From Chloroflexota bacterium (GTDB lineage Bacteria; Chloroflexota; Limnocylindria; QHBO01), in assembly GCA_003243965.1 (NCBI GenBank), contig QHBO01000016.1:71076-135075 (forward strand): 64,000 nt of DNA. The letters are read 5' to 3'. Positions within the stretch are counted from its first letter, which is position 1; each line of letters opens with the position of its first letter. Both the position numbers and the translations under genes were made by a program. Under the pieces are notes generated by a model. That model was given only the letters and a program-made list of their open reading frames with translations. It did no database searches and was not told where the DNA came from. Shown here one piece after another: positions 7,545-46,947 of this stretch.

Positions 7545-8291
7545 CTATGCGACGTCACGGCGGGCGGTTGCGAGCAAACCCGCCAGGACCGCAACTGTCG
7601 CGTAGATGACGAGAAGGACGAGGCCGACGACCGGCGAAAGCAGCGTGTCCGCATTCTGCACCGAGATCGCCGCTGCGGCCGCCCCGGGCAGATACCGCCC
7701 GACGTCGCCAAGGGCGGCGATGTCGCCGGCCAGCAGGCCCTCGACGAACAGCAGCCACGCGCAGATGCCGATCAGCGTCGGAACCTGGTTGCGAAGGACC
7801 GCGCCGAGACCGACGCCGATCGCCGCCCACAGCCCGGCGGCCGCCGCGCCCCCCGCGATCAGGAGCGCGTAGTCGCCTCCGCTGAGCTGGACGTCGATCC
7901 CGCGCGCCCGAAGCGCCGCGGTGCCGACCCCCGCCGCGAGCGCAGACGCCGCGAGGCCGAACGCGGCCCCGACCAGCATGCTCGCCCACACCTTCGCCAC
8001 GATGACGCGGCCACGCCGCGGGCTGACGAGAAACGTCGATCGGATGGTCCCGTAGCGGATCTCGCTCGTGATCGACAGCGCGCCGAGGAGGGCGGCGAAG
8101 AGGATGGCGAGGAACCCTCCCCGGCCGAACACCATCAGCTGCGTCGAGGTGCTGTCGAGGATCCTGGCCGGGAGGGCGTAGGCGTGGAGCAGCATGGCCA
8201 CCAGGACGAGGCCAAGCAAGCCGGCGAAGAGGCCAAGGCCGGTGCGGGTCGATCGCTGCTTGAGCAGCTCGGAGCGGAGCTCGGCCGTCAC
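7545..8291 (-). CDS. ABC-2 type exporter, membrane subunit
   Basis: This 248-residue protein has six hydrophobic helices and the soluble segment SEITSEIRYGTIRSTFLVSP-like pattern (ITSEIRYGTIRST at about residues 75-87) characteristic of ABC-2 permeases of the NatB/CcmB style. The GTG start overlaps the stop of the ATPase gene upstream (GTGA at 8288-8291), so the two subunits are coupled. With the ATPase it would form an exporter; substrates in this family include ions, lipids, antibiotics and peptides, and cannot be deduced here. Confidence 0.85.
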   Translation of the reverse strand: MTAELRSELLKQRSTRTGLGLFAGLLGLVLVAMLLHAYALPARILDSTSTQLMVFGRGGFLAILFAALLGALSITSEIRYGTIRSTFLVSPRRGRVIVAKVWASMLVGAAFGLAASALAAGVGTAALRARGIDVQLSGGDYALLIAGGAAAAGLWAAIGVGLGAVLRNQVPTLIGICAWLLFVEGLLAGDIAALGDVGRYLPGAAAAAISVQNADTLLSPVVGLVLLVIYATVAVLAGLLATARRDVA

Positions 8292-9073
8292 GCTGCCCCT
8301 CCGGTCAGGCCGAGGTAGACGTCCTCGAGCGTTCGTTCGCCGCCGGTGAGCTCGTGCAGTCGCCCGCTCGCGACGTGCCGACCGTGGTCGATGATCACCA
8401 CGTCATCGACGGTCTGCGCCGCCTCGGCGAGCATGTGGCTCGAGACCAGCACCGTGCGGCCCTGCGCCGCGAAGTCGCGCAGGAAGCGCCGCAGCCAGTG
8501 GACGCCCGCCGGATCCAGGCCATTGGCCGGCTCGTCGAGGACGAGCAGCTGAGGGTTGCCGAGCAGCGCTCCGGCCAGCCCGAGCCGTTGTCGCATCCCC
8601 AGCGAGTAGGCCTGCACGCGCCGATGAGCAGCGGCTGCAAGCTCGACCAGCGCCAGCACCTCCTCGACGCGGGTTGACGGGATCTCCGCCGCGAGCGCGA
8701 GCGTGCGCAGGTGGTCGCGCCCGGAGCGTCCGGGGTGAAAGTCGCTCGACTCGAGCACCGCGCCGACTCGTCGCGCCGGGTCGTCGAGCTCTCGATAGCG
8801 GTGGCCGAAGACGAGGGCCTCGCCCGACGTCGGCTCGGCGAGCCCGAGCAGCAGGCGCAGGGTGGTTGTCTTACCGGCGCCGTTCGCCCCGAAGAAGCCG
8901 GTGACGGTGCCCGGGCGGAGCGAGAACGACAGCTCGTCGACGGCGACGAGATCGCCGTAGCGCTTGGTCAGCGAGGTGAGCGTGACCACCGGATCGCGAG
9001 CGCCGGCGTCGCCAATGACGACCGGGAACCTCTCCCGATCGTCGGCGCTCCTCGCCAGGTTGAGGTCACGCAT
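8288..9073 (-). CDS. ABC-2 type exporter, ATP-binding subunit
   Basis: The 261-residue ATPase has Walker A GANGAGKT (about 66-73), a Q-loop region, the signature SLGMRQRLGLA, Walker B LLVLDEPANGLDP and the H-loop SSHML, in the order seen in BcrA/CcmA-like ABC-2 ATPases. The ATG at 9073 is preferred over a TTG one codon upstream because it overlaps the stop of the small gene before it (TGATG). It pairs with the permease downstream. The unit is divergent from a TetR regulator at 9368, which probably controls it. Confidence 0.9.
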   Translation of the reverse strand: MRDLNLARSADDRERFPVVIGDAGARDPVVTLTSLTKRYGDLVAVDELSFSLRPGTVTGFFGANGAGKTTTLRLLLGLAEPTSGEALVFGHRYRELDDPARRVGAVLESSDFHPGRSGRDHLRTLALAAEIPSTRVEEVLALVELAAAAHRRVQAYSLGMRQRLGLAGALLGNPQLLVLDEPANGLDPAGVHWLRRFLRDFAAQGRTVLVSSHMLAEAAQTVDDVVIIDHGRHVASGRLHELTGGERTLEDVYLGLTGGAA

Positions 9074-9261
9074 CAATGGAGCCCTGGGCCGATGGCGCCT
9101 GTGAGGTGCGCGACGACGATCAGCAGGACCAGGACGATCGCGATGATGATTCCAAGCACGGATGCCCAGCGTCGCTTACCGCGGGCCGACTCGCGGTCGG
9201 GTCCCGAGCCGAGATCGCGGGTCTCGCCGGTGGAGTCTGGGTCGGGCGACAGGTCAGCCAT
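9073..9261 (-). CDS. Small single-pass membrane protein of the ABC unit
   Basis: This 62-residue protein has an acidic N-terminal half (MADLSPDPDSTGETRD), a basic patch GKRRW and one strong transmembrane helix (VLGIIIAIVLVLLIVVAHL) close to the C-terminus. The ATG at 9261 is the first that leaves a sensible protein; the frame is open further upstream into the divergent tetR promoter. Its stop overlaps the ATPase start, so it is the first gene of the ABC operon and may be an accessory or regulatory subunit. No family recognised. Confidence 0.65.
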   Translation of the reverse strand: MADLSPDPDSTGETRDLGSGPDRESARGKRRWASVLGIIIAIVLVLLIVVAHLTGAIGPGLH

Positions 9262-9355
9262 GGCGTGTGTCCTCGGGCGCTTGGTGGGCAGAGGGGATCT
9301 TGATGGAGACAGGATGTCTACGTCAAGTCGGAGTGTCTCTAGGTCAGTCACCACG

Positions 9356-9361
9356 TATACT
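9356..9361 (+). promoter_or_regulatory. -10 box of tetR, leaderless
   Basis: TATACT ends 6 bases before the GTG start at 9368. No strong -35 is visible, and the transcript would begin at or next to the start codon. Confidence 0.55.
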
Positions 9362-9367
9362 CGTGCG

Positions 9368-9946
9368 GTGCCGAAGCTGTGGACCGAGACGATCGAGGCG
9401 CACCGCCACGCAGTGCGCGATGCGACTTTGGATACCGCTGCGGAACTGGTGGCCGAGCATGGCCTGCGGTCGGTGACGATGTCGCAGATCGCGGAGGAGA
9501 CCGGCATCGGGCGGGCGACGCTGTACAAGTACTTCCCGGACGTCGAAGCCATCCTGCTCGCATGGCATGAACGTCAGATCAGTGGCCATCTCGCACATCT
9601 CGCCCAAGTCCGCGACCAGGCTGGCGACGCCGGCGAGCGACTCGAAGCGGTGCTCGAAGCCTACGCGCTCATCTCCCACGAGTCCCGTGGGCACCACGAC
9701 ACCGAACTCGCGGCGTTCCTGCATCGAGATGAGCAGGTCGGTCGAGCGCAGCATCAGCTCCGCGACATGATTCGACACTTGCTGAGGGAGGCCGCGGAGG
9801 CCGGCGTGCTGCGGGGCGATATCGCGCCTGACGAACTCGCTGGCTACTGCCTGCACGCCCTCGGAGCAGCCAGCAGCCTGCCGTCCAAGGCCGCAGTTCG
9901 CAGGCTGGTGGCGGTGACGCTGGCTGGGTTGCAACCCCCGTACTGA
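9368..9946 (+). CDS. TetR/AcrR-family transcriptional regulator
   Basis: This 192-residue protein has an N-terminal helix-turn-helix (LVAEHGLRSVTMSQIAEETG ... GRATLYKYFPD, about residues 25-58), the canonical TetR fingerprint, followed by an all-helical ligand-binding and dimerisation domain. The GTG start at 9368 is chosen from the TATACT box directly upstream and because it gives the usual TetR N-terminal length. It is divergent from the small membrane protein/ABC-2 exporter unit, so it is most simply a repressor of that exporter, relieved by the exported compound. Confidence 0.88.
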   Translation: MPKLWTETIEAHRHAVRDATLDTAAELVAEHGLRSVTMSQIAEETGIGRATLYKYFPDVEAILLAWHERQISGHLAHLAQVRDQAGDAGERLEAVLEAYALISHESRGHHDTELAAFLHRDEQVGRAQHQLRDMIRHLLREAAEAGVLRGDIAPDELAGYCLHALGAASSLPSKAAVRRLVAVTLAGLQPPY

Positions 9947-10304
9947 GTCAGCCTGCGCGCGGCTAGCACTCCTCCGCGCCGCGAGCGGAAGATCGGCTCG
10001 CGCGAATCGGCGCTTTCGGTCTGTCGGAGGTAGCGCACCGCGCCTGGCGGGCCGTGTTGCCGACCGGCACGACTCGCTCGCGCGAGCCTTTGCCCAGCAC
10101 CTTGACGCTGCCGTCCGGTCGCAGGTCGCAGCGACGCAACCCCGCCACCTCGGACAGGCGCAGGCCGGTGTCCAGCATGATCAGGCCGATGGCGCGGTCG
10201 CGCACCGAGGCGGCATCGAGCAGCCGGCGCAGCGCGTCATCGGACAGCGGTTCGACGAGCTTGTGCGGAATCTGCGGCCGGCGCAGGGTGCCCAGGGCTC
10301 TCAC
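9945..10304 (-). pseudogene. Tyrosine recombinase (XerC/D-like) remnant, left
   Basis: The minus strand encodes a fragment of a phage-type integrase: LSDDALRRLLDAASVRDRAI, then the Arg-I box TGLRLSEVAGLRRCDLRPDG and VKVLGKGSRERVVPVG. Near 10035 the frame shifts; the other frame continues RYLRQTESADSREPIF. The C-terminal catalytic His/Arg/Tyr part and the N-terminal arm-binding domain are missing. The segment is closely similar at DNA level to the remnant at 17385-17585, in the same orientation. It is a decayed gene and part of the accessory block boundary. Confidence 0.8.
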
Positions 10305-10404: not shown

Positions 10405-11142
10405 TTAGTCCGACAACTCGTGACGCTCAATCGGGGCGACTCGATCAAATCTGCTTTCACCGTCGAGGCGCCCGTCGACCAGGCGGACCACCCGCTCAGC
10501 GAAACTGGCAACGGCCGGATCGTGAGTCGCCACGACAACGGTTAGCTCACGATCCTCGCGCAGCCCGGCAATGACCGCGAGAAGGTCCTCCGTGCTCGAG
10601 GCATCGAGATTCCCGGTCGGTTCATCGGCGAGCAGCACAGGGCGTCCCATGAGCAGTGCGCGAGCGATGGCGACTCGTTGTCGCTGACCGGCCGACAGCT
10701 TCGAAGGTGGAAAACCCAAGCGGTCGGCGAGGCCCATCGACTCTAACAGCATCGTGGCTTCGGCCCGCAACTCGTGCGCAGGGGCGTGCGGAAGGCCGGC
10801 GACCACGACGTTCTCGAGGGCGGTCAGGCCAGGGAGCAGATGCGCCTCCTGGAAGACGATTCCGACGACTCGGGCGCGGAATCTAGTCAACGCTGCCTCA
10901 TTCGCCAGATCGAGTCGCTCACCCATCACCGTCAGAGCGCCCCGCGTCGCACGGTCGAGGCCACCGATGAGATTCAACAGCGTCGTCTTCCCGGAGCCAG
11001 AGGGGCCGGTGACGGCGATCATCTCGTTGGGGGGGATCCGCAACGTCACGTCGCAAACGGCCGTGACCTCAGCATCGCCACTCGGGTATGAGCGCGAGAC
11101 CGATTCCAGGACGATGGCGTCGCGCTCAGCCGAACTGCTCAA
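10405..11142 (-). CDS. MacB/LolD-type ABC transporter ATPase
   Basis: This 245-residue ATPase has Walker A GPSGSGKT (about 45-52), the Q-loop IVFQEAHLLPGLTALENV, signature LSAGQRQRVAIARAL (usual form LSGGQ, so the first Gly is Ala here), Walker B VLLADEPTGNLD and the H-loop THD. This is the type that partners FtsX-like permeases in MacB, LolCDE and bacteriocin-export or immunity systems. Its partner is the split permease at 12635-15314 in the same operon. The start is a TTG at 11142 overlapping the end of padR by 17 bases. It is the last gene of the seven-ORF operon. Confidence 0.88.
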   Translation of the reverse strand: MSSSAERDAIVLESVSRSYPSGDAEVTAVCDVTLRIPPNEMIAVTGPSGSGKTTLLNLIGGLDRATRGALTVMGERLDLANEAALTRFRARVVGIVFQEAHLLPGLTALENVVVAGLPHAPAHELRAEATMLLESMGLADRLGFPPSKLSAGQRQRVAIARALLMGRPVLLADEPTGNLDASSTEDLLAVIAGLREDRELTVVVATHDPAVASFAERVVRLVDGRLDGESRFDRVAPIERHELSD

Positions 11143-11674
11143 CCTGATCCTCCTCGGTTCGCGCGGGTGGCCTGGCGACGATCTCCGCGGAGTTGTCGCG
11201 AAGGGTGACCAGCCACCGGATTTCCGCCTCGATGCGCCTGATCTCTACGGCGAGGGCCTCTGGTTGAAAGCCTCGCTTCGAGTCTGTGCGTACCTGCCGC
11301 AGACCATGCAGCGCTGCAGACCGCTGCTCGGTCATGACGTCCACGAGCTCAGGAAACCTGTCCGGCGCCACCATCCGCGCGATTGCCAGGCGGACGACGA
11401 GCTCGTCAGCGGGCCCATCGTCGAAGAGATAGCTCTCACCGAATGCGCGCCCAGAGGCCGTCAGCGTGAAGACTTGGCGGTCCGGGCGATTCGGCTGCGG
11501 AACACGCTCGGACCGGGCGAGCCCATCTCGGATCAACCGCCCGAGGGTGGTGTACACCTGGCTCGGCCGGGTGGCCCACAGCGGTCCGAGCTCAGCGTCC
11601 AATGCCGACAACAACTCGTAACCATGCGCAGGACCGCGCAGGAGAAGGGCGGCGAGGGCCCCCTGAAGGCTCAT
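11126..11674 (-). CDS. PadR-family transcriptional regulator
   Basis: This 182-residue protein starts MSLQGALAALLLRGPAHGYELLSALD and continues WATRPSQVYTTLGRLIRDGL, the winged-helix fingerprint of PadR regulators, with a helical C-terminal dimerisation domain (about residues 100-175). The ATG overlaps the stop of the thioredoxin-like gene (ATGA at 11671-11674), and its end overlaps the ATPase start. PadR proteins commonly repress neighbouring drug or peptide exporters and release DNA on ligand binding; its position inside the operon points to auto-control of this system. Confidence 0.88.
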   Translation of the reverse strand: MSLQGALAALLLRGPAHGYELLSALDAELGPLWATRPSQVYTTLGRLIRDGLARSERVPQPNRPDRQVFTLTASGRAFGESYLFDDGPADELVVRLAIARMVAPDRFPELVDVMTEQRSAALHGLRQVRTDSKRGFQPEALAVEIRRIEAEIRWLVTLRDNSAEIVARPPARTEEDQVEQFG

Positions 11675-12207
11675 GAGGTTGCCGCCCCGGTCCTAATGAT
11701 TGCCGCCAATTGAGTAACCTCGGCTCCGATCGTCTGCGCGGCGATCCTTCCGCCCAGAATTGCGAACGAGTGCGGCGTGACGTTCGTTTCAAAGGCTTTC
11801 GCGAGGCCGCCGTCAGGATCAGTTACATAGTCCGCTTCGCACCGCACGGAGTCTGTCAATGGCGATCCGTCGGGACCCGGCCGCTCGATGATGGCCACCC
11901 TGTTGCCAAACAGGTGGAGATCTGTGTCGCTGATTGATGCCATCAGCTCTCGACACGGTTGGCAGTTGGCAGCGGCAAAGACGATGAGGCTGGGGCCCTC
12001 CAGCCAGGCCTCGATGTCCGAGCCGGGGGGAAGGCTCGCAACAAACGGCCGCGGGATCTCGCTCCCGACGGCAAGCCCAGCACTTGGCGTTGGCGCACCA
12101 TGGCCTTCCATGTGGGACACTCGCAGCGTAACGCCAACCGCCAGCAGAACGGCCACCATGGACAGGAGGAGCGCGGCGGCGGCCAAGCAAAGCGCCAGCA
12201 CATCCAT
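11671..12207 (-). CDS. Membrane-anchored thioredoxin-like protein, MauD-like
   Basis: This 178-residue protein has one N-terminal membrane helix (LALCLAAAALLLSMVAVLLAVG) and a thioredoxin-like domain with the redox motif CQPC in VFAAANCQPCRELM (about residues 80-93), a VAIIERPG strand and a TPHSFAI segment that supplies the cis-Pro region. This layout matches MauD, which helps the disulfide-rich light chain of methylamine dehydrogenase to fold. It follows a MauE-like gene by 21 bases, as mauE and mauD do in mau clusters. Here the probable client is the ten-Cys TAT peptide at the head of the operon. It would act on the outer face of the membrane. Confidence 0.75.
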   Translation of the reverse strand: MDVLALCLAAAALLLSMVAVLLAVGVTLRVSHMEGHGAPTPSAGLAVGSEIPRPFVASLPPGSDIEAWLEGPSLIVFAAANCQPCRELMASISDTDLHLFGNRVAIIERPGPDGSPLTDSVRCEADYVTDPDGGLAKAFETNVTPHSFAILGGRIAAQTIGAEVTQLAAIIRTGAATS

Positions 12208-12228
12208 CGTTGGTCCATTACCTCCAAC

Positions 12229-12633
12229 CTAGGTTGCAAGCACGAGAAGCAGAGCCAGCCACGATGCCATCGCCAGACCGACTGCCCGGAAGAGCGTCCC
12301 CGGACCAAGCGCCTCCTCTCGAACGATTCCGAGACAGCCGCATTCGCCTCGCCACCCAAGCGACCACGCCACTGCCTGCGCGCCTGAGAAGCCCGTGAGC
12401 AACGCGGACGAGACGATTAGGCCGTACAGGCGCGCAGCAGGCAGCACCAGAAGGCCGGCGCAGGCTGACTCGGCGATGAGAACGCCCCAAGCGACGGACG
12501 GCGCCAGGTCCGGAGGCAGGTGGTAGGTGGTGACCAGAGCTCGCTGGAACAGCCGGTGGCGAAGCGCCTTCCCGCCAGCCGAGACGACGAACACGGCCGC
12601 GAGAGCAACGGCCACGACGGTCACCGGCTCCAC
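12229..12633 (-). CDS. MauE/DoxX-like redox membrane protein
   Basis: This 134-residue protein has four hydrophobic helices. The loop WRGECGCLGIV carries the Cys-X-Cys-X-Gly signature typical of the MauE/DoxX-like family, and the N-terminal segment VVSAGGKALRH fits the same family. MauE proteins cooperate with thioredoxin-like MauD in periplasmic disulfide chemistry, probably passing electrons across the membrane. The gene starts 2 bases after the stop of the permease and precedes the MauD-like gene, so the pair is part of the peptide/ABC operon. Confidence 0.75.
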   Translation of the reverse strand: MEPVTVVAVALAAVFVVSAGGKALRHRLFQRALVTTYHLPPDLAPSVAWGVLIAESACAGLLVLPAARLYGLIVSSALLTGFSGAQAVAWSLGWRGECGCLGIVREEALGPGTLFRAVGLAMASWLALLLVLAT

Positions 12634-12634
12634 C

Positions 12635-13741
12635 TCAGAGATCCTCCTTCAGCGCCAGGGCAGGTGAGGTGCGATAGGAGTAGGCCATGGGACCGACGGC
12701 GGCCAGCAGGGAAATGGCGGCCATCGCAAGGGCGGCGAGGGTCGCGCTGAGCAGGATCGCGCCCATTCCACCTTGTAGCAGCATGCCCATCGTGACTACC
12801 GCCAACGCACCGGCTGCCGCGCCCGTGAGCCCGATTGCAGTTGACTGCGTGATCAGAAGGAAGGCCACGGCTCGTTGAGGCCAACCCAAGGCTCGCAACG
12901 CTGCCAATTCGACTTGACGCTCGAGGTAGCTCATCGCCACCACCTCGGTCACGGCGATGATCGCAACGACCGCCGTCAGCCCCGCGATCGCCAGATGGAA
13001 CGGTTGGACCCTCGCTGACAGGAAGGTGCCGAGCAGGGTCGTGTCGAGGACGCCGCGGAAGCCGAGCACGATGAGCACAATGCCGCCCACAAGGAATGTG
13101 GCCAATCCGACGCCCAACGCCCCGAGCAGGGCTTCGACGCGCCGGTACCCCAGCAGCTCACCCAGAGCGAGGCGCGGTATCGTCGCGCCGCCAAGGAGGT
13201 TCGATAGCCCGGGGCCCTGGATGACTTGCAAGGTCGTTCCCCGGCTGGCGGCAAGAGCGGGAGCGGCACCGGCAATGCCGGCAGTCACGGTCGCGAGCGG
13301 CACGGCGACCAACAGCAGCACCGGCTGAAGCTCGAGGTGCAGCACGAGGGCCGCGACCACGCCCGAAAGCGCGGCCGCGAGCCCCACAGCCAGACCTAAG
13401 AGGAGCATCTCCAACTCGACCAGGAAGGCGACGCGGACTGCTGGCCAGCCGAGGGCGCGGAGGATGCCGAACTCCCTCCGCCTCCGCCTGACACTGAGGT
13501 ATGCGGTCTCCCCGACCAGGATGGCTGCCACCACCAGCACCAGCCCGAAGATTGCAATGTCTTGCGCCTGGACCGCCTCCAGGAAGCGGATGGCAACACC
13601 CTTCACCGCCCATCCCTCGGTGGCCGTCAGGGCGGGCCTGCCGAACTTGCCGGCGGCGAGCTCGATGCTCATGGGTTGCGGGCTCGATCCAACCACGATG
13701 TCAACCTCGAGGCCGGTCGCAGCGGCGATGTCAGCCGCCAC
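12635..13741 (-). CDS. FtsX-type ABC permease, C-terminal part (frameshifted)
   Basis: This 368-residue part holds two FtsX-like modules. Each has membrane helices around a cytosolic coupling motif: VRRRRREFGILRALGWPAVR (about 85-104) and YLERQVELAALRALGWPQRA (about 270). Its first residues, AADIAAATGLEVDIVVGSSP, are the continuation of the extracytoplasmic domain encoded by the 13731-15314 frame, which runs into this frame only if one base is removed from the CCCGGG at 13792-13797. The two together would make a permease of about 890 residues with eight or more helices, partner of the ATPase at 10405. Annotated as a separate part because the shift is what the sequence shows; a sequencing error is a real alternative. 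Confidence 0.8.
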   Translation of the reverse strand: MAADIAAATGLEVDIVVGSSPQPMSIELAAGKFGRPALTATEGWAVKGVAIRFLEAVQAQDIAIFGLVLVVAAILVGETAYLSVRRRRREFGILRALGWPAVRVAFLVELEMLLLGLAVGLAAALSGVVAALVLHLELQPVLLLVAVPLATVTAGIAGAAPALAASRGTTLQVIQGPGLSNLLGGATIPRLALGELLGYRRVEALLGALGVGLATFLVGGIVLIVLGFRGVLDTTLLGTFLSARVQPFHLAIAGLTAVVAIIAVTEVVAMSYLERQVELAALRALGWPQRAVAFLLITQSTAIGLTGAAAGALAVVTMGMLLQGGMGAILLSATLAALAMAAISLLAAVGPMAYSYRTSPALALKEDL

Positions 13742-15314
13742 CCTGGTGAGCTTTCCCTGCGCCGTCGAGCTCGGTTCGCTGACCCCGGAGACCCGGGACG
13801 CGGATGGCGCTGATTAAGGCCTGCCCTGGTCGACCCGCAAAGCGCTTCGGGTCAGCCAGGAACTCAGCACCCTCCAAGGTGGTCAGGACGAGGGGTGGGC
13901 TGTTGACGTAGCCAGCCATGTTCCGCGTCGGCTTGAGCTCCGAGCCATCGGGTAGCCGAACCAGCGGCGGAGCGTATGTCTCCATCCGATATCCAGCCAA
14001 GGGGTCGAAGCCGGGCAGGCAACTCGGGTCGTACTGGCCGAGCAACTCCCATGCCGCCGGTCGATAGTCTCCGGGCTGCTCGTGGGCGGTCAGGTGCCGG
14101 AACCAGGTGTCCCGCGCCTCGGCGGGTACCTCGATCCCTCCCTGCGGCAGCATCTTCGACAGGTACACACCGAGATCCGTCGACACAGGCTGGGCGGCAA
14201 TGTGGCCGTCGATGTTGCGGTAGCTGACATCGCTCTGCGTCCAGAGCGAAGACACGCTATCGAAGAAACCTGCCGCCAGGGTCGGAAGCATGAGACGGTA
14301 GGTGCTGTCGCCAGTTGCCTGCTGCTGCCCGACGCGTTCCCATCCGGCGATGGCTGCTATCCCCTGGTCCTGCAGCAGCGGACCGGCAGCAGCGCTGCGC
14401 TCGATCGAAAGCTCGATCTGCTCATCGATGAAGCTCCCGCCGCTGGCGATGACCTGCAGTCGGGGTTGGTAATCCTTGCTTCGCCCGATCCCACCCGTCT
14501 CGGGGAGGTACCGGCCGCTGGTGACGCACTTGTCCAGTCCGAAGAGGGCCGCCTCGGCCTGAGGATCGATGCCCGCGATTACCACCGGCTGGTTGAAGGA
14601 GCCCCACAGCGTCGGGTGGGTAGTGTCGGTGCCGACGGGCTGGAACGCCACAGAATTGTCGATCGCATCAGGTGTCGCGCCTCCGAAGCAGGGCTGGTAG
14701 TTGCGTCCCGTCGGCGAGGTCGGATCGGGGAAGTTCCAGCAGTCGATCTGGTGGCCGTCGACCGTCAGGACAACGTGCGTGGGAAGGCCCTGGACGTCGC
14801 GGGTGATGCTGACGCTGCCAGATGGGGATACCAGCACAGCCCCGCTCGTGGCAGCCGGATACGTCGATAGACCGGCGTCGCCGCGCGCCTGCTCGATGAC
14901 ACGGAACGCCTGCAGCGGCTTGGACGGATCCACGTACGGGGAAAGATCGATCGACCAGGCCGCCGGCCAGTTGACGACGCCAGCCACAGCCACCGGTGCG
15001 GCGATCTTTACCCCTGGGATACCGCGGATCTTGTCCAGCTGCGCCAGCGTGATCCCGCCGGTTAGGCCGGACAGGAAATTCGGTCGCACCAGCCCGGACT
15101 GTTGCTCAAGGTCCGATCGGCTGCCGGCGGGGCGTACCAGCAGATCATACGGGCCCGTCCAGACGCGACCGATGTCTCCGGTGACCACCGCCTGGGTGGT
15201 GCGCGACGTCCCTGCGAGGAGCAAGAAGCCGAGCGTTGCTGTCAGCAGTCCCAACGCGCCGAGCAGCGTTGCAGCCCGTCGGGCGATCAACTGACGGATG
15301 GCGAGACTAACCAT
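13731..15314 (-). CDS. FtsX-type ABC permease, N-terminal part (frameshifted)
   Basis: This 527-codon frame starts with a membrane helix (LLGALGLLTATLGFLLLAGT, about residues 17-36) and continues with a large extracytoplasmic domain of about 450 residues, including TGPYDLLVRP and ITLAQLDKIRGIPGVKIAAP, the MacB-like periplasmic pattern. At about residue 505 the reading (AIRVPGLRGQRTE) departs from what the family predicts; the other frame reads VSGVSEPSSTAQGKLTRVAA and joins the next part. Thus one permease gene is split by a +1 shift near 13792-13797. It lies directly downstream of the Cys-rich peptide gene and is presumably the transport channel of the operon. Confidence 0.8.
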   Translation of the reverse strand: MVSLAIRQLIARRAATLLGALGLLTATLGFLLLAGTSRTTQAVVTGDIGRVWTGPYDLLVRPAGSRSDLEQQSGLVRPNFLSGLTGGITLAQLDKIRGIPGVKIAAPVAVAGVVNWPAAWSIDLSPYVDPSKPLQAFRVIEQARGDAGLSTYPAATSGAVLVSPSGSVSITRDVQGLPTHVVLTVDGHQIDCWNFPDPTSPTGRNYQPCFGGATPDAIDNSVAFQPVGTDTTHPTLWGSFNQPVVIAGIDPQAEAALFGLDKCVTSGRYLPETGGIGRSKDYQPRLQVIASGGSFIDEQIELSIERSAAAGPLLQDQGIAAIAGWERVGQQQATGDSTYRLMLPTLAAGFFDSVSSLWTQSDVSYRNIDGHIAAQPVSTDLGVYLSKMLPQGGIEVPAEARDTWFRHLTAHEQPGDYRPAAWELLGQYDPSCLPGFDPLAGYRMETYAPPLVRLPDGSELKPTRNMAGYVNSPPLVLTTLEGAEFLADPKRFAGRPGQALISAIRVPGLRGQRTELDGAGKAHQGGG

Positions 15315-15407
15315 TTAGTTGGGCTTGCTCGACCGGCAGCGATCGCGATTCAACCGCGGCGACCTCCATTGGCTGGGGCTGCAACGTCCGCGCGGGAAGA
15401 CCGGACG

Positions 15408-15788
15408 CTAGCAGGGGTTGAAGGAGTAGCAGAAGCTGGAGCAGGGACTCAAGCAGAAGTAAGAGTCGTAGTCGGTGCAGTAATTATGGCAGCGGTGCGT
15501 TGACTTCCCTGACCCGCATACATTGCATCCGCCAATGTAGTAGCAGTACCACCAGCAGGCATCGGGAGTGGCCGGCTTTCCGTTCGCGCCCAGGATCGGA
15601 GGTGCCTGTTTCTGCGTTAGCGAGATGGTCGCTGCCGCAGTTTGGCGTTGCAGGTCGCGGGCTCGTGTGATCCCAGGTGCAAGGAGTGAGGCCGCGACTC
15701 CTGCCGTTCCGATCGCCAGACGCCGCAGAAAACGGCGCCGGTCGAGCTGCCCCTCGACGTGCTCTGCTAACGCCGACAGTCGTTCCAT
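15408..15788 (-). CDS. TAT-exported ten-cysteine peptide (MauA-like pattern)
   Basis: This 126-residue precursor has a twin-arginine signal: DRRRFLRRL at residues 16-24, then a hydrophobic stretch AIGTAGVAASLLAPG and likely cleavage near ITRA (43). After a 35-residue linker comes a cysteine-dense end with Cys at 78, 82, 88, 91, 100, 104, 112, 116, 120 and 126. The block ACWWYCYYIGGCNVCGSG recalls the start of the disulfide-knotted domain of MauA, the methylamine dehydrogenase light chain (also TAT-exported and needing MauD/MauE), but the widely spaced Trp pair that makes the TTQ cofactor is not present. Start 15788 has a purine-rich site GGAAGGGGG upstream and a TATACT (15826-15831). It heads the operon with the FtsX permease, MauE/MauD-like proteins, PadR and ATPase. 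Function unknown: secreted bioactive peptide or redox carrier are both possible. Confidence 0.78.
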   Translation of the reverse strand: MERLSALAEHVEGQLDRRRFLRRLAIGTAGVAASLLAPGITRARDLQRQTAAATISLTQKQAPPILGANGKPATPDACWWYCYYIGGCNVCGSGKSTHRCHNYCTDYDSYFCLSPCSSFCYSFNPC

Positions 15789-16958: not shown

Positions 16959-17372
16959 GTGGCGCTGGTCTGCGACACGGGGCCGCTGCTTGCGGCGCTC
17001 GATGCCGCCGATCCCGATCACGAGCGCTGCGCTGGATTGCTGACCGCGGGGGACGAGGATCTGGTCGTCCCGGCCCTCGTCCTCGCCGAGCTCGACTACT
17101 GGTGTTCCCGGCGCCTGGGGCCCGACGCCTGGCTCATCTTCCTCGACGATCTGCTGGCAGGGGTCTACCGGGTCGAGCCGCCGACCGGCGCCGATCTCGC
17201 CCGCTGTCGCGAGCTGCAGGCTCGCTACGCCGACCTGAAGCTCGGGCTCGTCGACGCGAGTGTCGTGGCACTCGTCGAGCGTCTGAGCGAGCCAAAGGTG
17301 GCTACCCTCGACCAGCGCCACTTCCGGGCCGTGCGGCCGGCGCATATCGAGGCTCTGGAACTCCTGCCGTGA
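16959..17372 (+). CDS. vapC: VapC-like PIN-domain ribonuclease toxin
   Basis: This 137-residue PIN-domain protein has the acidic active-site residues of the family: Asp6 in VCDTGPL, Glu44 in VLAELDYW, Asp99 in LGLVDASV and Asp117 in TLDQRHF. VapC toxins cut tRNA or rRNA with Mg when freed from the antitoxin. The GTG start lies 2 bases after the vapB stop. The module sits at the edge of the accessory block beside an integrase remnant and tRNA-Gln, where it may have stabilised the element. Confidence 0.88.
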   Translation: MALVCDTGPLLAALDAADPDHERCAGLLTAGDEDLVVPALVLAELDYWCSRRLGPDAWLIFLDDLLAGVYRVEPPTGADLARCRELQARYADLKLGLVDASVVALVERLSEPKVATLDQRHFRAVRPAHIEALELLP

Positions 17373-17384
17373 ATGGGTCCGCGG

Positions 17385-17585
17385 CAGCCCTGGGGAATCT
17401 CGGAAGGCGCGAGGTGCAGCGTCTGGGCCGCGCTCGCGCAGGTAGCGCACCAGCGCCTGGCGCGCCGTCGAGCCGACCGGCACGATGCGCTCGCGCGAGC
17501 CCTTGCCCGTGACCTTGACGCTGCCGTCGGGCCGCAGGTCGGCGAGGCGCAGGCCCGCCAGCTCCGACAGCCGCAGGCCGGTAAT
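17385..17585 (-). pseudogene. Tyrosine recombinase remnant, right
   Basis: The minus strand reads TGLRLSELAGLRLADLRPDG, then VKVTGKGSRERIVPVGSTAR and QALVRYLRERGPD, the same Arg-I region as the remnant at 9945-10304 and in the same orientation. It begins abruptly beside the hairpin at 17583-17603 and tRNA-Gln and has no catalytic C-terminus. The two remnants bracket about 7.4 kb, including the Cys-rich-peptide operon. Confidence 0.8.
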
Positions 17586-17603
17586 CCCACAGGTTGTGGG
17601 ATT
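17583..17603. terminator. Hairpin directly after tRNA-Gln
   Basis: AATCCCACA (17583-17591) and TGTGGGATT (17595-17603) form a perfect 9-bp stem with a 3-base loop, starting at the CCA end of the tRNA on the minus strand. It may be a terminator or processing signal (no U-run) or a trace of the recombination site. Confidence 0.4.
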
Positions 17604-17677
17604 GGCTGGGGCGGAAGGATTCGAACCTTCGATCTCCTGATCCAGAGTCAGGCGCCTTACCGCTTGGCCACACCCCA
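17603..17677 (-). tRNA. trnQ: tRNA-Gln (anticodon CTG)
   Basis: A 75-nt cloverleaf with encoded CCA. The acceptor arms TGGGGTG/CGCCCCA pair along their length. The anticodon arm is CCTGA-CTCTGGA-TCAGG, giving anticodon CTG for codon CAG. The T-arm contains GGTTCGAATCC. The 3' end faces the accessory block and abuts a recombinase remnant, the usual geometry of an integration site in a tRNA gene. Confidence 0.95.
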
Positions 17678-43735: not shown

Positions 43736-44811
43736 CGGTCGCGCCGCACTACGACCCGGGGTCGCGTCGTCCGCCAGTCGTAATCTCGCGGTGACTCGCC
43801 CTCGGCCAGCAGGCCGTGTGCGCGCAGCCACGCGTCGTCGTACAGCTTCGCGAGGTAGTTGCGGCCGCCGTCGGGCAGGATGACGACCATCAACGCCGAG
43901 GGATCCGCGACGTCGCGCGCGCACTGCAGCGCCGCCCACAGCGCGGTGCCGCACGACTCCCCCATCAGGATCCCCTCGCAGGCGGTCGCTGCCCGGGCGG
44001 TGAGGAACGAGTCGCGATCGGCGACCTGGATGATGAGGTCACACACGTCGCGGTCGTAGGTATCGGGCCAGAAATCCTCGCCGATTCCCTCGGTCAGATA
44101 GGAGCGCGGCGTATCGCCGGAGTAGACGGAGCCGGCGGGGTCCGCGCCGACGACCACCAGGCCTGGCTTGCGCTCCTTGAGATAGCGCCCTGCCCCGCTG
44201 ATCGTGCCGCCGGTGCCGATCGCGACCACCAGGTGCGTGACGCGCCCCTCGGTCGCCTGCCAGATCTCGGGGCCGGTCGCCGCAAAGTGCGCAGCGGGAT
44301 TCAGCGGATTGGCGTACTGGTCCGGCTTCCAGGCGCCGGGAATCTCGCGCGCCAGGCGATCGGAGACGCGGTAGTAGCTGCGCTCGTCGTCCGGGGCTAC
44401 GTCGCTCGGACAGATGACGAGCTCGGCGCCGTAGGCCTGCAGCAGCGCGCGCTTCTCGTCGCTCTGCTTGTCGGCCATCACGAAGATGCACCGATAGCCC
44501 TTCACCGCGGCGGCCATCGCCAGCCCGGCGCCGGTGTTGCCGCTGGTCGGCTCGACGATCGTTCCGCCCGGCTTCAGGAGCCCTTCTCGCTCCGCCGCCT
44601 CGATCATCGGCAGCGCGATCCGGTCCTTCACCGATCCTGCGGGGTTGACGCTCTCCAGCTTGGCCACGATCCGTGGCGCCACGCCGTGCGCCAGCCGGTC
44701 GAGCGCCACCAGGGGTGTCGCGCCAACCGCCGCGGTGACATCGGGGAGAATGGCCGACCGCTCAGCCAGGTTGCGGCTCCGTGGCTCCTGTGTCGGCCGC
44801 TGCCTGGGCAT
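43732..44811 (-). CDS. Cystathionine beta-synthase-like / cysteine synthase
   Basis: This 359-residue fold-type-II PLP enzyme has KLESVNPAGSVKDRIALPMI (Lys near residue 63), PTSGNTGAGLAMAAAVKGY, the phosphate loop VAIGTGGTISGAG and the stretch DDERSYYRVSDRLAREIPGA with WKPDQYANPLNP, the last typical of cystathionine beta-synthases rather than CysK/CysM. No C-terminal CBS-pair domains are present. With the gamma-lyase-like gene it would move sulfur from homocysteine to cysteine. The start overlaps lgt by 50 bases; an ATG in an ACCGATG word was used, and a later start is possible. Confidence 0.88.
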   Translation of the reverse strand: MPRQRPTQEPRSRNLAERSAILPDVTAAVGATPLVALDRLAHGVAPRIVAKLESVNPAGSVKDRIALPMIEAAEREGLLKPGGTIVEPTSGNTGAGLAMAAAVKGYRCIFVMADKQSDEKRALLQAYGAELVICPSDVAPDDERSYYRVSDRLAREIPGAWKPDQYANPLNPAAHFAATGPEIWQATEGRVTHLVVAIGTGGTISGAGRYLKERKPGLVVVGADPAGSVYSGDTPRSYLTEGIGEDFWPDTYDRDVCDLIIQVADRDSFLTARAATACEGILMGESCGTALWAALQCARDVADPSALMVVILPDGGRNYLAKLYDDAWLRAHGLLAEGESPRDYDWRTTRPRVVVRRDR

Positions 44812-45649
44812 CGGTCTGGCGCGATCCGTTCATCCAGGCACCCGGGGTGCCCCAGCCGAACCGATGGCGCAGGACCAGGAAGACGCCGGCGACCACGAAC
44901 GCGATGATCCCGATCCACATCGCGGTCGGGATGCCAAGGATCGTCCAGTTGCCGGTCCCGTTGCGCATCGGCTCCAGCGCGGAGCGGACCGCGCCGTACC
45001 ACATGATGTACAGCAGCGCGATGTCGCCGTCGTACAGGTGGCGGGCGAATCGGCGTGCCACCCACAGCAGCACCACCATGCCGAGCAGGTTGAGGAGCGC
45101 CTCGTACGCGAACAGCGGGTGGAAGCGGGTGGTGGGCACCGGGAAGTCGACCGCGTTCCACGGCGTCCCGGCCCGGTGCGCTCTATCGATCGGGATGCCC
45201 CACGGCAGAGTGGTGGGCGGGCCGTACAGCTCCTGGTTGACGAAGTTCCCGAGCCGACCGATGGCCTGGCCAAGCAGCAGTGCGGGGGCAAAGATGTCGA
45301 GCCAGCGCGCCAGGCTCAGGCCCTTGCGGCGAGTGTAGATCCAGATTCCGAGCACGCCGCCGGCAATCGCGCCGGGAATACCGATGCCGCCGTTCCAGAT
45401 CTGGGGAATCAGTTCCGGGTGCTGCGAATAGATCGGGCCCCACTGGTGGATGACGTGGTAGATGCGCGCGCCGATGAGGCTGGTGAGGATGACCAGCAGG
45501 AGCATCGACCATCCGTGGTCGGGATCCTCGCCGCGACGCCGCGCCTCCACGGTGCCCAGGAAGGCGCCGGCCAGCACCGCAAGGGCGATGATGATGCCAT
45601 ACCAGTGGACCTGGAGCGGCCCGAGCCGGAGGGCGACCGGATCAATCAC
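44762..45649 (-). CDS. lgt: Prolipoprotein diacylglyceryl transferase
   Basis: This 295-residue protein has about seven membrane helices and the Lgt signature GQAIGRLGNFVNQELYGPPT (about residues 125-144), with VHWYGIIIALAV near the N-terminus and the HPLFAYEALLNL segment. It transfers diacylglycerol to the lipobox cysteine of lipoproteins, several of which are encoded in this window. The GTG start lies 7 bases behind a minus-strand TAGAAT (45662-45657). Overlaps the MFS stop upstream by 4 bases and the CBS-like gene downstream by 50. Confidence 0.95.
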   Translation of the reverse strand: MIDPVALRLGPLQVHWYGIIIALAVLAGAFLGTVEARRRGEDPDHGWSMLLLVILTSLIGARIYHVIHQWGPIYSQHPELIPQIWNGGIGIPGAIAGGVLGIWIYTRRKGLSLARWLDIFAPALLLGQAIGRLGNFVNQELYGPPTTLPWGIPIDRAHRAGTPWNAVDFPVPTTRFHPLFAYEALLNLLGMVVLLWVARRFARHLYDGDIALLYIMWYGAVRSALEPMRNGTGNWTILGIPTAMWIGIIAFVVAGVFLVLRHRFGWGTPGAWMNGSRQTDAQAAADTGATEPQPG

Positions 45650-46947
45650 GGCGGCGATTCTACTCCGCCGGCCGAACCGGTCCGCTGCGCGGCGCCGGTC
45701 TCATCGACCGGTGGACGCCCGCCGCCGGCAGCCTGCGGGAAGCGCCGCAGCGACCACAGCCCGGGGAAGAGTCGCGTCCAGATGACCGCGACCGCGATGG
45801 TTGCCACACCGCCGACGAGCACGGCCGGCACCACGCCCAGCCATGCGGCGGCCACGCCCGACTCGAACTCCCCCAGCTCGTTGGACGCACCGATGAAGAC
45901 GGCATTCACCGCGCTGACCCGGCCCCGGATCGGGTCGGGCGTCTCGAGCTGGACGAGCAGGTGCCGGATGAAGACGCTCACCATGTCCGCAGCGCCCAGG
46001 ACGATCAGCGCCAGGAGCGTCATGGGGAAGCTGCGCGAGACACCGAACACCAGGGTCGCCAGGCCGAAGGCCGCCACCGCGCCGAACATCCAGCGTCCCA
46101 CCTGATCCCGGATCGGCTGCGCGCTCATCACCGCGGCGCACAGGGCCGCCCCGACCGCCGGGGAGGCTCGCAGCACGCCGAGGCCGATGGGCCCGACCCG
46201 CAGCAGGTCGCTGGCGAACACCGGCAGCAGCGCCGTCGCCCCGCCGAACAGGACGGCGAACAGATCAAGCGAGATGGAGCCCAGCACGATGGGCTGCGAG
46301 CGCACGAAGCGCACGCCGGAGAGCAGCGTGCCGAGGTGGATCGGCTCAGTCGGAGCGCGCGGCGAGGGTGAGCGGCCGCCGCCACCCAGACCGACGATCA
46401 GGACTGCTGCCACGGCCAGCAGGGCAAGCACCGTGGCGTACACCACGCCGGCGCCGGCGAGGAACAGGAGGCCACCGATCGCCGGTCCGGCGATGGTCGC
46501 CACCTGGCCGGCGGACGAGTGGACCGCTACCGCGTTGGCGAACATCGGCGGCGGCACCAGGTTGGGAAGCAGCGCCTGGCTGGTCGGCATCGAGAAGGCT
46601 CGTGCCACGCCGAACAGGGCCATCACCGCGAAGACCGGCGCGGCGCTGCGCAGTCCGACCACGCTGAACGTCAGCAGGGCAGCCGCAGCGATCGCTTCCA
46701 GGGCGTAGCAGCCCGCCACGATCCGTCGTCGATCGAGCCGGTCGGCCGCCTGGCCGGCGGGGAGCACCAGCAACAAGAACGGCAGGAACTGCGAGAGCCC
46801 GATCAGCCCCAGGTCGAGCGGGTTGTGGGTGGTGGCGTACACCTGCCAACCGACCGCCACGGTCTGCATCTCGACGGCGATGGAGCCGAGGAAGCGACCG
46901 GCCACGTACCGCCGGAAGTCGGGAACGCTGAGCGCGTGGTTCGCCAT
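45646..46947 (-). CDS. Major facilitator superfamily exporter
   Basis: This 433-residue protein has 12 predicted helices. It opens FRRYVAGRFLGSIAVEMQTV AVGWQVY and has the loop-2 motif GQAADRLDRRRIV, both typical of the EntS-like (enterobactin exporter/TMS1) MFS group. Substrate unknown. A minus-strand TATCCT lies about 10 bases before the ATG. The Pro/Gly-rich cytosolic tail extends about 30 residues past the last helix. First gene of a five-gene minus-strand chain through lgt, the CBS- and CGL-like enzymes and the small membrane protein. Confidence 0.88.
   Translation of the reverse strand: MANHALSVPDFRRYVAGRFLGSIAVEMQTVAVGWQVYATTHNPLDLGLIGLSQFLPFLLLVLPAGQAADRLDRRRIVAGCYALEAIAAAALLTFSVVGLRSAAPVFAVMALFGVARAFSMPTSQALLPNLVPPPMFANAVAVHSSAGQVATIAGPAIGGLLFLAGAGVVYATVLALLAVAAVLIVGLGGGGRSPSPRAPTEPIHLGTLLSGVRFVRSQPIVLGSISLDLFAVLFGGATALLPVFASDLLRVGPIGLGVLRASPAVGAALCAAVMSAQPIRDQVGRWMFGAVAAFGLATLVFGVSRSFPMTLLALIVLGAADMVSVFIRHLLVQLETPDPIRGRVSAVNAVFIGASNELGEFESGVAAAWLGVVPAVLVGGVATIAVAVIWTRLFPGLWSLRRFPQAAGGGRPPVDETGAAQRTGSAGGVESPP
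45657..45662 (-). promoter_or_regulatory. -10 box of lgt inside the MFS gene, leaderless
   Basis: Minus-strand TAGAAT ends 7 bases before the GTG at 45649. Confidence 0.5.

Follow-up and report, generated by a model that had tools for sequence, protein, structure and literature searches.

MauE and MauD are best studied in the maturation of MauA, the light chain of methylamine dehydrogenase, and even in this role their biochemical functions are, to our knowledge, unsettled. Disulfide-rich bacteriocins that come with dedicated thioredoxin-like proteins leave the cell via leader-cleaving ABC transporters. The closest published lead to the locus described here comes from decRiPPter, which delineated three mauE-containing candidate RiPP families in Streptomyces, one of them also with mauD; their precursors hold at least eight cysteines and were left uncharacterised there, and the authors likewise propose a peptide-modification role (Kloosterman et al. 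2020, PMC7794033).

Here we analyse an operon in a 64,000-nucleotide stretch of a Chloroflexota genome (the window) that resembles each of these systems in part. With the decRiPPter families, as far as the available parts of that study describe them, it shares mauE, a predicted precursor of at least eight cysteines, a transporter and the absence of other mau genes; it differs in its predicted Tat export, its FtsX permease and MacB-type pump and its PadR regulator, none of which is mentioned for Streptomyces in those parts. Those families are themselves predicted and confined to Streptomyces, and a spread over Chloroflexota does not figure in the same description. As in the MauA system, a small, disulfide-rich protein would be exported and accompanied by MauE and a MauD-like thioredoxin, but the peptide here has ten Cys in a core of some 50 aa and no spaced Trp pair, and the operon adds an ABC pump and PadR. 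It also resembles disulfide-rich bacteriocin systems, in having a predicted secreted Cys-rich peptide, a redox helper and an ABC transporter, with a Tat signal and MauE in place of the leader-cleaving transporter. A literature search, with most subscription papers outside its reach, returned nothing closer than the decRiPPter families, and the original prediction that no described system has exactly this gene set must be qualified in their favour (PMC7794033, in the parts available).

A six-gene operon on a probable island

The operon lies on the minus strand from 15788 to 10405 and encodes, in this sequence, the Tat precursor, permease, MauE, thioredoxin, PadR and ATPase, with neighbouring genes spaced by -17 to +93 bp:

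15408..15788, minus strand: precursor (126 aa) of a Cys-rich peptide, predicted to be Tat-exported (RR motif, TIGR01409)
13731..15314, minus strand: permease part 1, one TM helix and a large extracytoplasmic domain (~40-43% identity to L044/L047)
12635..13741, minus strand: permease part 2, two FtsX domains (PF02687, two stretches)
12229..12633, minus strand: MauE-family membrane protein, CxC motif CGC (PF07291, E 1e-22)
11671..12207, minus strand: MauD-like, N-terminally anchored thioredoxin-fold protein, CQPC, cis-Pro P145 (PF13098, E 0.01; fold match)
11126..11674, minus strand: PadR-family transcriptional regulator (PF03551, E 5e-14)
10405..11142, minus strand: MacB/LolD-type ABC ATPase for the FtsX permease (PF00005, E 1e-30)

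ORF coordinates and family searches confirmed the gene positions, identities and small gaps first proposed for this segment, but the seven genes first counted become six. The permease homologues at loci L044 and L047 are unbroken ORFs of 892-893 aa, and adjacent residues in them (505/506 and 506/507, respectively) map to window positions 13797/13795 in different frames; the supposedly split permease is therefore one gene with a frameshift near 13796, which could be either a sequencing error or a real mutation.

The permease carries FtsX (PF02687) in two stretches, which together with the PF00005 ATPase is the composition of a MacB-type ABC transporter. Its N-terminal part matched no Pfam family, and the whole protein scored far below all named NCBIfam models. 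The best NCBIfam scores of the ATPase were to MacB, LolD and DevA, all under their cut-offs (207 against 966 bits for the MacB equivalog, 186 against 308 for LolD), and the regulator matched TIGR03433 at E 9e-6, likewise under its cut-off. The MacB/LolCDE/ADOP-type (type VII) ABC transporters that come with PadR have a MacB/LolD-like ATPase, FtsX domains and a large extracytoplasmic domain in common with this pump; in the window, by contrast, the permease unites the two FtsX domains in one fused protein and has a single very large domain.

The assembled genome measures 2.2 Mb and is 93% complete. Its placement in Chloroflexota agrees with the permease tree, where a genome assigned to the same phylum (G224) clusters with Thermoflexus. 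Tyrosine-integrase remnants flank the operon (PF00589 at 9963-10304; on the right side 17225-17677), and a direct repeat with 84% identity joins 10025-10169 to 17437-17582, beside tRNA-Gln at 17603-17677. The G+C content of the operon is somewhat under that of the rest of the window. The integrase remnants are probably what is left of an integrated island, and the peptide was probably acquired. Adjoining the operon, at 7545-9946, are the genes of another ABC transporter pair, of the ABC-2 type, and a TetR regulator in divergent orientation.

A Cys-rich precursor and its probable redox partners

The precursor has the RR motif DRRRFL at residues 16-21, a linker and then the Cys core, with ten cysteines within its last 49 residues, which bears out the twin-arginine precursor with ten terminal cysteines that was first read from it. 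The TIGR01409 Tat-signal model scores it at 16.8 bits, just above the cut-off of 16.7, and the genome encodes TatC (PF00902, E 5e-61); with an RR motif, a hydrophobic stretch and the machinery at hand, the precursor is a predicted Tat substrate. The core matched no Pfam or NCBIfam family, and its AlphaFold model (pLDDT 58) was too poor for structure comparison. Across the peptides of all loci discussed below, Pfam and NCBIfam searches gave signal-sequence matches, a weak DCC1-like match for L121 (E 0.02) and otherwise sub-threshold noise.

A pairwise search of the order, of 400 genomes of the phylum and of plasmids found no recognisable homologue of the window peptide; the weak matches that it returned are unrelated signal-like stretches. 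The original prediction would have fallen had homologues turned up without the partner genes. None did, but neither did any sequence homologue in the phylum, so the association with partner genes can be followed only through the neighbours.

Those neighbours include the MauE-like and MauD-like redox proteins that had been proposed. MauE scores 81.3 bits against a PF07291 cut-off of 27, and its CxC motif (CGC in the window gene) is invariant in the aligned MauE proteins. The thioredoxin is weak by sequence (PF13098), and had no NCBIfam match at E <= 1, the MauD equivalog included; its structural model (pLDDT 83) matches DsbE/ResA/CcmG folds at E 8e-8. Its resemblance to MauD is thus one of predicted fold and context only. 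CxxC and the cis-Pro are invariant across 12 thioredoxins of these loci. Elsewhere (L161, L162, L166 and L169), one long ORF encodes MauE and a thioredoxin-like domain as a fusion, next to genes for larger proteins that contain 16 to 28 Cys.

Recurrence of the gene set

The recurrence of the gene set is far from chance. Relatives of the permease N-terminus occur in 12 of 301 genomes of the phylum. A ten-row permease alignment, tried first, was too diverse for scanning; a scan with the permease N-terminus across 84,980 species genomes yielded 79 loci. At the Ktedonobacteria-like loci L035, L036 (twice) and L037, MauE and thioredoxin genes accompany Cys-rich peptides, most of which are Tat-type. 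An Actinomycetota MAG, MGR_bin368, has three paralogous sets of MauE, thioredoxin, Tat peptide and permease (L073, L096, L102); an ATPase gene lies upstream in two of them, L073 and L102, and L102 also has a divergent PadR. Close variants occur in Gaiellaceae (L122), Chloroflexus (L078), Anaerolineales (Anaerolineae; L087) and others. The Thermoflexus loci (L033, L100, L121) lack MauE; immediately upstream of their permease is a gene for a fusion protein in which a DCC-like thiol-disulfide domain (PF04134, at no better than E 0.02) is combined with a segment resembling an RR signal and with a tail of ten Cys.

We then compared 95 permease copies, counting MauE/MauD HMM matches within 6 kb. A Cys-rich ORF lies just upstream of the permease in 15 of the 18 copies with MauE/MauD and in 12 of the 77 without (Fisher p = 8e-8, a value that overstates independence because several of the copies share a genome or belong to close relatives); the opposite-strand control gave 2 of 95. 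About nine of those 12 ORFs look out-of-frame by eye. The three exceptions among the 18 are L074 and L075, whose candidate peptides the filter missed (the one has four Cys only, the other lies downstream), and a second permease copy in L037, whose locus has a peptide. Candidate peptides were sought at L055, L059 and L113 and not found. That these same partners recur in other phyla supports the idea of a system dedicated to exporting a Cys-rich peptide and to oxidising it outside the cell.

Is the pump part of this system? PadR with such ABC pumps but no peptide is found in many Actinomycetota, as with stand-alone resistance pumps. Linkage to MauE and a peptide is scattered over the permease tree, whose well-supported branches require at least seven changes; with so many gains or losses, permease and peptide are not tightly bound. 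Starting from MauE gave the complementary picture: a same-strand Cys-rich ORF lies within 2 kb of 21 of 41 sampled genes, against 1 of 41 on the opposite strand, and the permease HMM found nothing in the 41 loci. The peptide core being common without the permease and the permease common without the peptide, the constant core is MauE, a thioredoxin and an exported Cys-rich peptide, and the FtsX ABC pump is an add-on, contrary to the original prediction, which included it in the system. One of the 41 loci (L180; contig C17, about 44600-46700) belongs to the window's own genome, which thus has a second such locus; it encodes MauE, a thioredoxin, a Tat-type Cys-rich protein of 16 Cys and a small protein of unknown kind, and no pump.

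Where the pump is present, its relation to export differs from locus to locus. At the leader-type loci L078 and L074, an S26 peptidase and a separate ABC exporter stand beside the FtsX permease, which is therefore not the obligatory exporter; L087, also leader-type, has no second exporter within the 16 kb covered, so the FtsX pump may export the peptide there. Export signals are exchangeable, varying among loci while the partner genes stay: Tat-type in the window, L036, L037, L073, L096, L102 and L122, Sec-like in L051 and L091, and leader-type peptides in L078, L074 and L087.

The cysteine count is even (4, 8, 10 or 12) in each of the 22 curated peptide cores, although near-copies among them mean that these are not 22 independent cases. 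Strict parity for all MauE-linked proteins was rejected: 19 of 23 are even when two leader-type cases are counted whole (17 with the script's cut). Among the three paralogous sets, identity is 69-81% for the signal, 67-76% for the permease and 43-47% for the core apart from its cysteines, and a core that diverges more than its signal or permease would fit effectors under diversification.

Proposed function of the operon

We propose, at even chances, that the operon makes a secreted, fully disulfide-bonded, bacteriocin-like peptide and that its pump protects the producer or clears the membrane. Tat export would carry the precursor out of the cytoplasm, followed by cleavage of its signal. MauE would serve as membrane redox partner and the anchored thioredoxin as oxidase or isomerase, the two together forming and sorting the five disulfides of the peptide outside the cell. 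Folding outside by this pair is very probable, given the invariant CxxC and cis-Pro, the invariant MauE CxC and the even Cys numbers. Under PadR control, the ATPase and double-FtsX permease would shield the producer from the mature peptide or clear the membrane of it, and the case for immunity or efflux as the task of the pump stands at about half. The peptide itself would act against other bacteria in bacteriocin fashion, a role suggested by the fast-diverging core in company with a pump and PadR; we hold such antibacterial activity, read from sequence features, at slightly under even.

The pump could also be an exit. MacB-type pumps take substrates from the outer face of the membrane, and after the same maturation the MacB-like FtsX pump might take a membrane-released peptide from the envelope, the peptide then being a signal or a structural surface peptide. 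The large extracytoplasmic domain of the permease would suit such a task, as would L087 with no other exporter in the stretch covered. We nevertheless consider release from the envelope unlikely: the same pair occurs in Actinomycetota, which mostly have no second membrane to cross, and MauE and the peptide core often occur without this pump.

Might the cysteines bind copper or zinc instead of pairing, in a metal-binding or redox-carrier peptide that MauE and the thioredoxin keep reduced or load? TlpA/ResA-like thioredoxins, which the window protein matches by fold, are often reductases, and the L102 MauE weakly matches HvfX, a maturation protein of copper-binding RiPPs (E 0.1). Set against this are the even Cys numbers of all 22 curated cores and a spacing and sequence that differ greatly from locus to locus and among paralogues, as a fixed metal site would not; nor did we notice a DUF692-type (MNIO) enzyme among the genes read by eye in these loci. 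We regard a metal or redox carrier as improbable.

It is more doubtful still that a PadR-ABC resistance pump and a MauE/thioredoxin/peptide unit became neighbours on an island by chance: each unit is found alone elsewhere and the operon sits between integrase remnants, but the two interleave in one operon (peptide, permease, MauE, thioredoxin, PadR, ATPase) and the permease tree shows them combined again on several of its deep branches.

A small-subunit relic of methylamine or quinohaemoprotein amine dehydrogenase, related to MauA or QhpC, is very improbable and already disfavoured, since, for all the MauE/MauD-like partners, the Tat-type signal and the MauA-like genes in the phylum, PF02975 (MauA) did not match the window peptide at E <= 1, the peptide has only two Trp, adjacent (WW) in the core and so no spaced TTQ pair, and PF06433 (MauB) had no match in the genome, though that model matched no control genome either. 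The PF02975 search had a positive control in L188, one of the 41 loci sampled from MauE, in a relative in the phylum, where two MauA-like genes that match it (1e-11 and 9e-9) precede a MauE-containing ORF. By its sequence the window peptide is not MauA, in agreement with the original prediction that this is no methylamine dehydrogenase light chain. Some Ktedonobacteria-like cores look MauA-like by eye and gave no PF02975 match at E <= 10.

Beyond the disulfide-bonded, bacteriocin-like peptide that we favour for this operon, MauE and the anchored thioredoxin may constitute a general and widespread system by which Chloroflexota and Actinomycetota export and fold disulfide-rich peptides, a tentative view to which we give somewhat less than an even chance. 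MauA would then be one special customer, the main ones being hypervariable Tat, Sec or leader peptides with exchangeable pumps (an FtsX ABC pump, or an S26 peptidase with an ABC exporter), and the window would represent a Tat/FtsX subtype making a bacteriocin-like peptide. Since distant bacteria share this kit while their peptides differ greatly, it has the look of a route, so far unstudied, to tough, possibly antibiotic-like peptides. Disulfide-rich peptides combine ruggedness with drug-like character, and few are known from bacteria. The conserved pair for oxidation beside highly variable, mostly even-Cys cores amounts to a simple genome-mining rule for two phyla, one that would reach many uncharacterised peptides and make the biochemistry of MauE and MauD testable.
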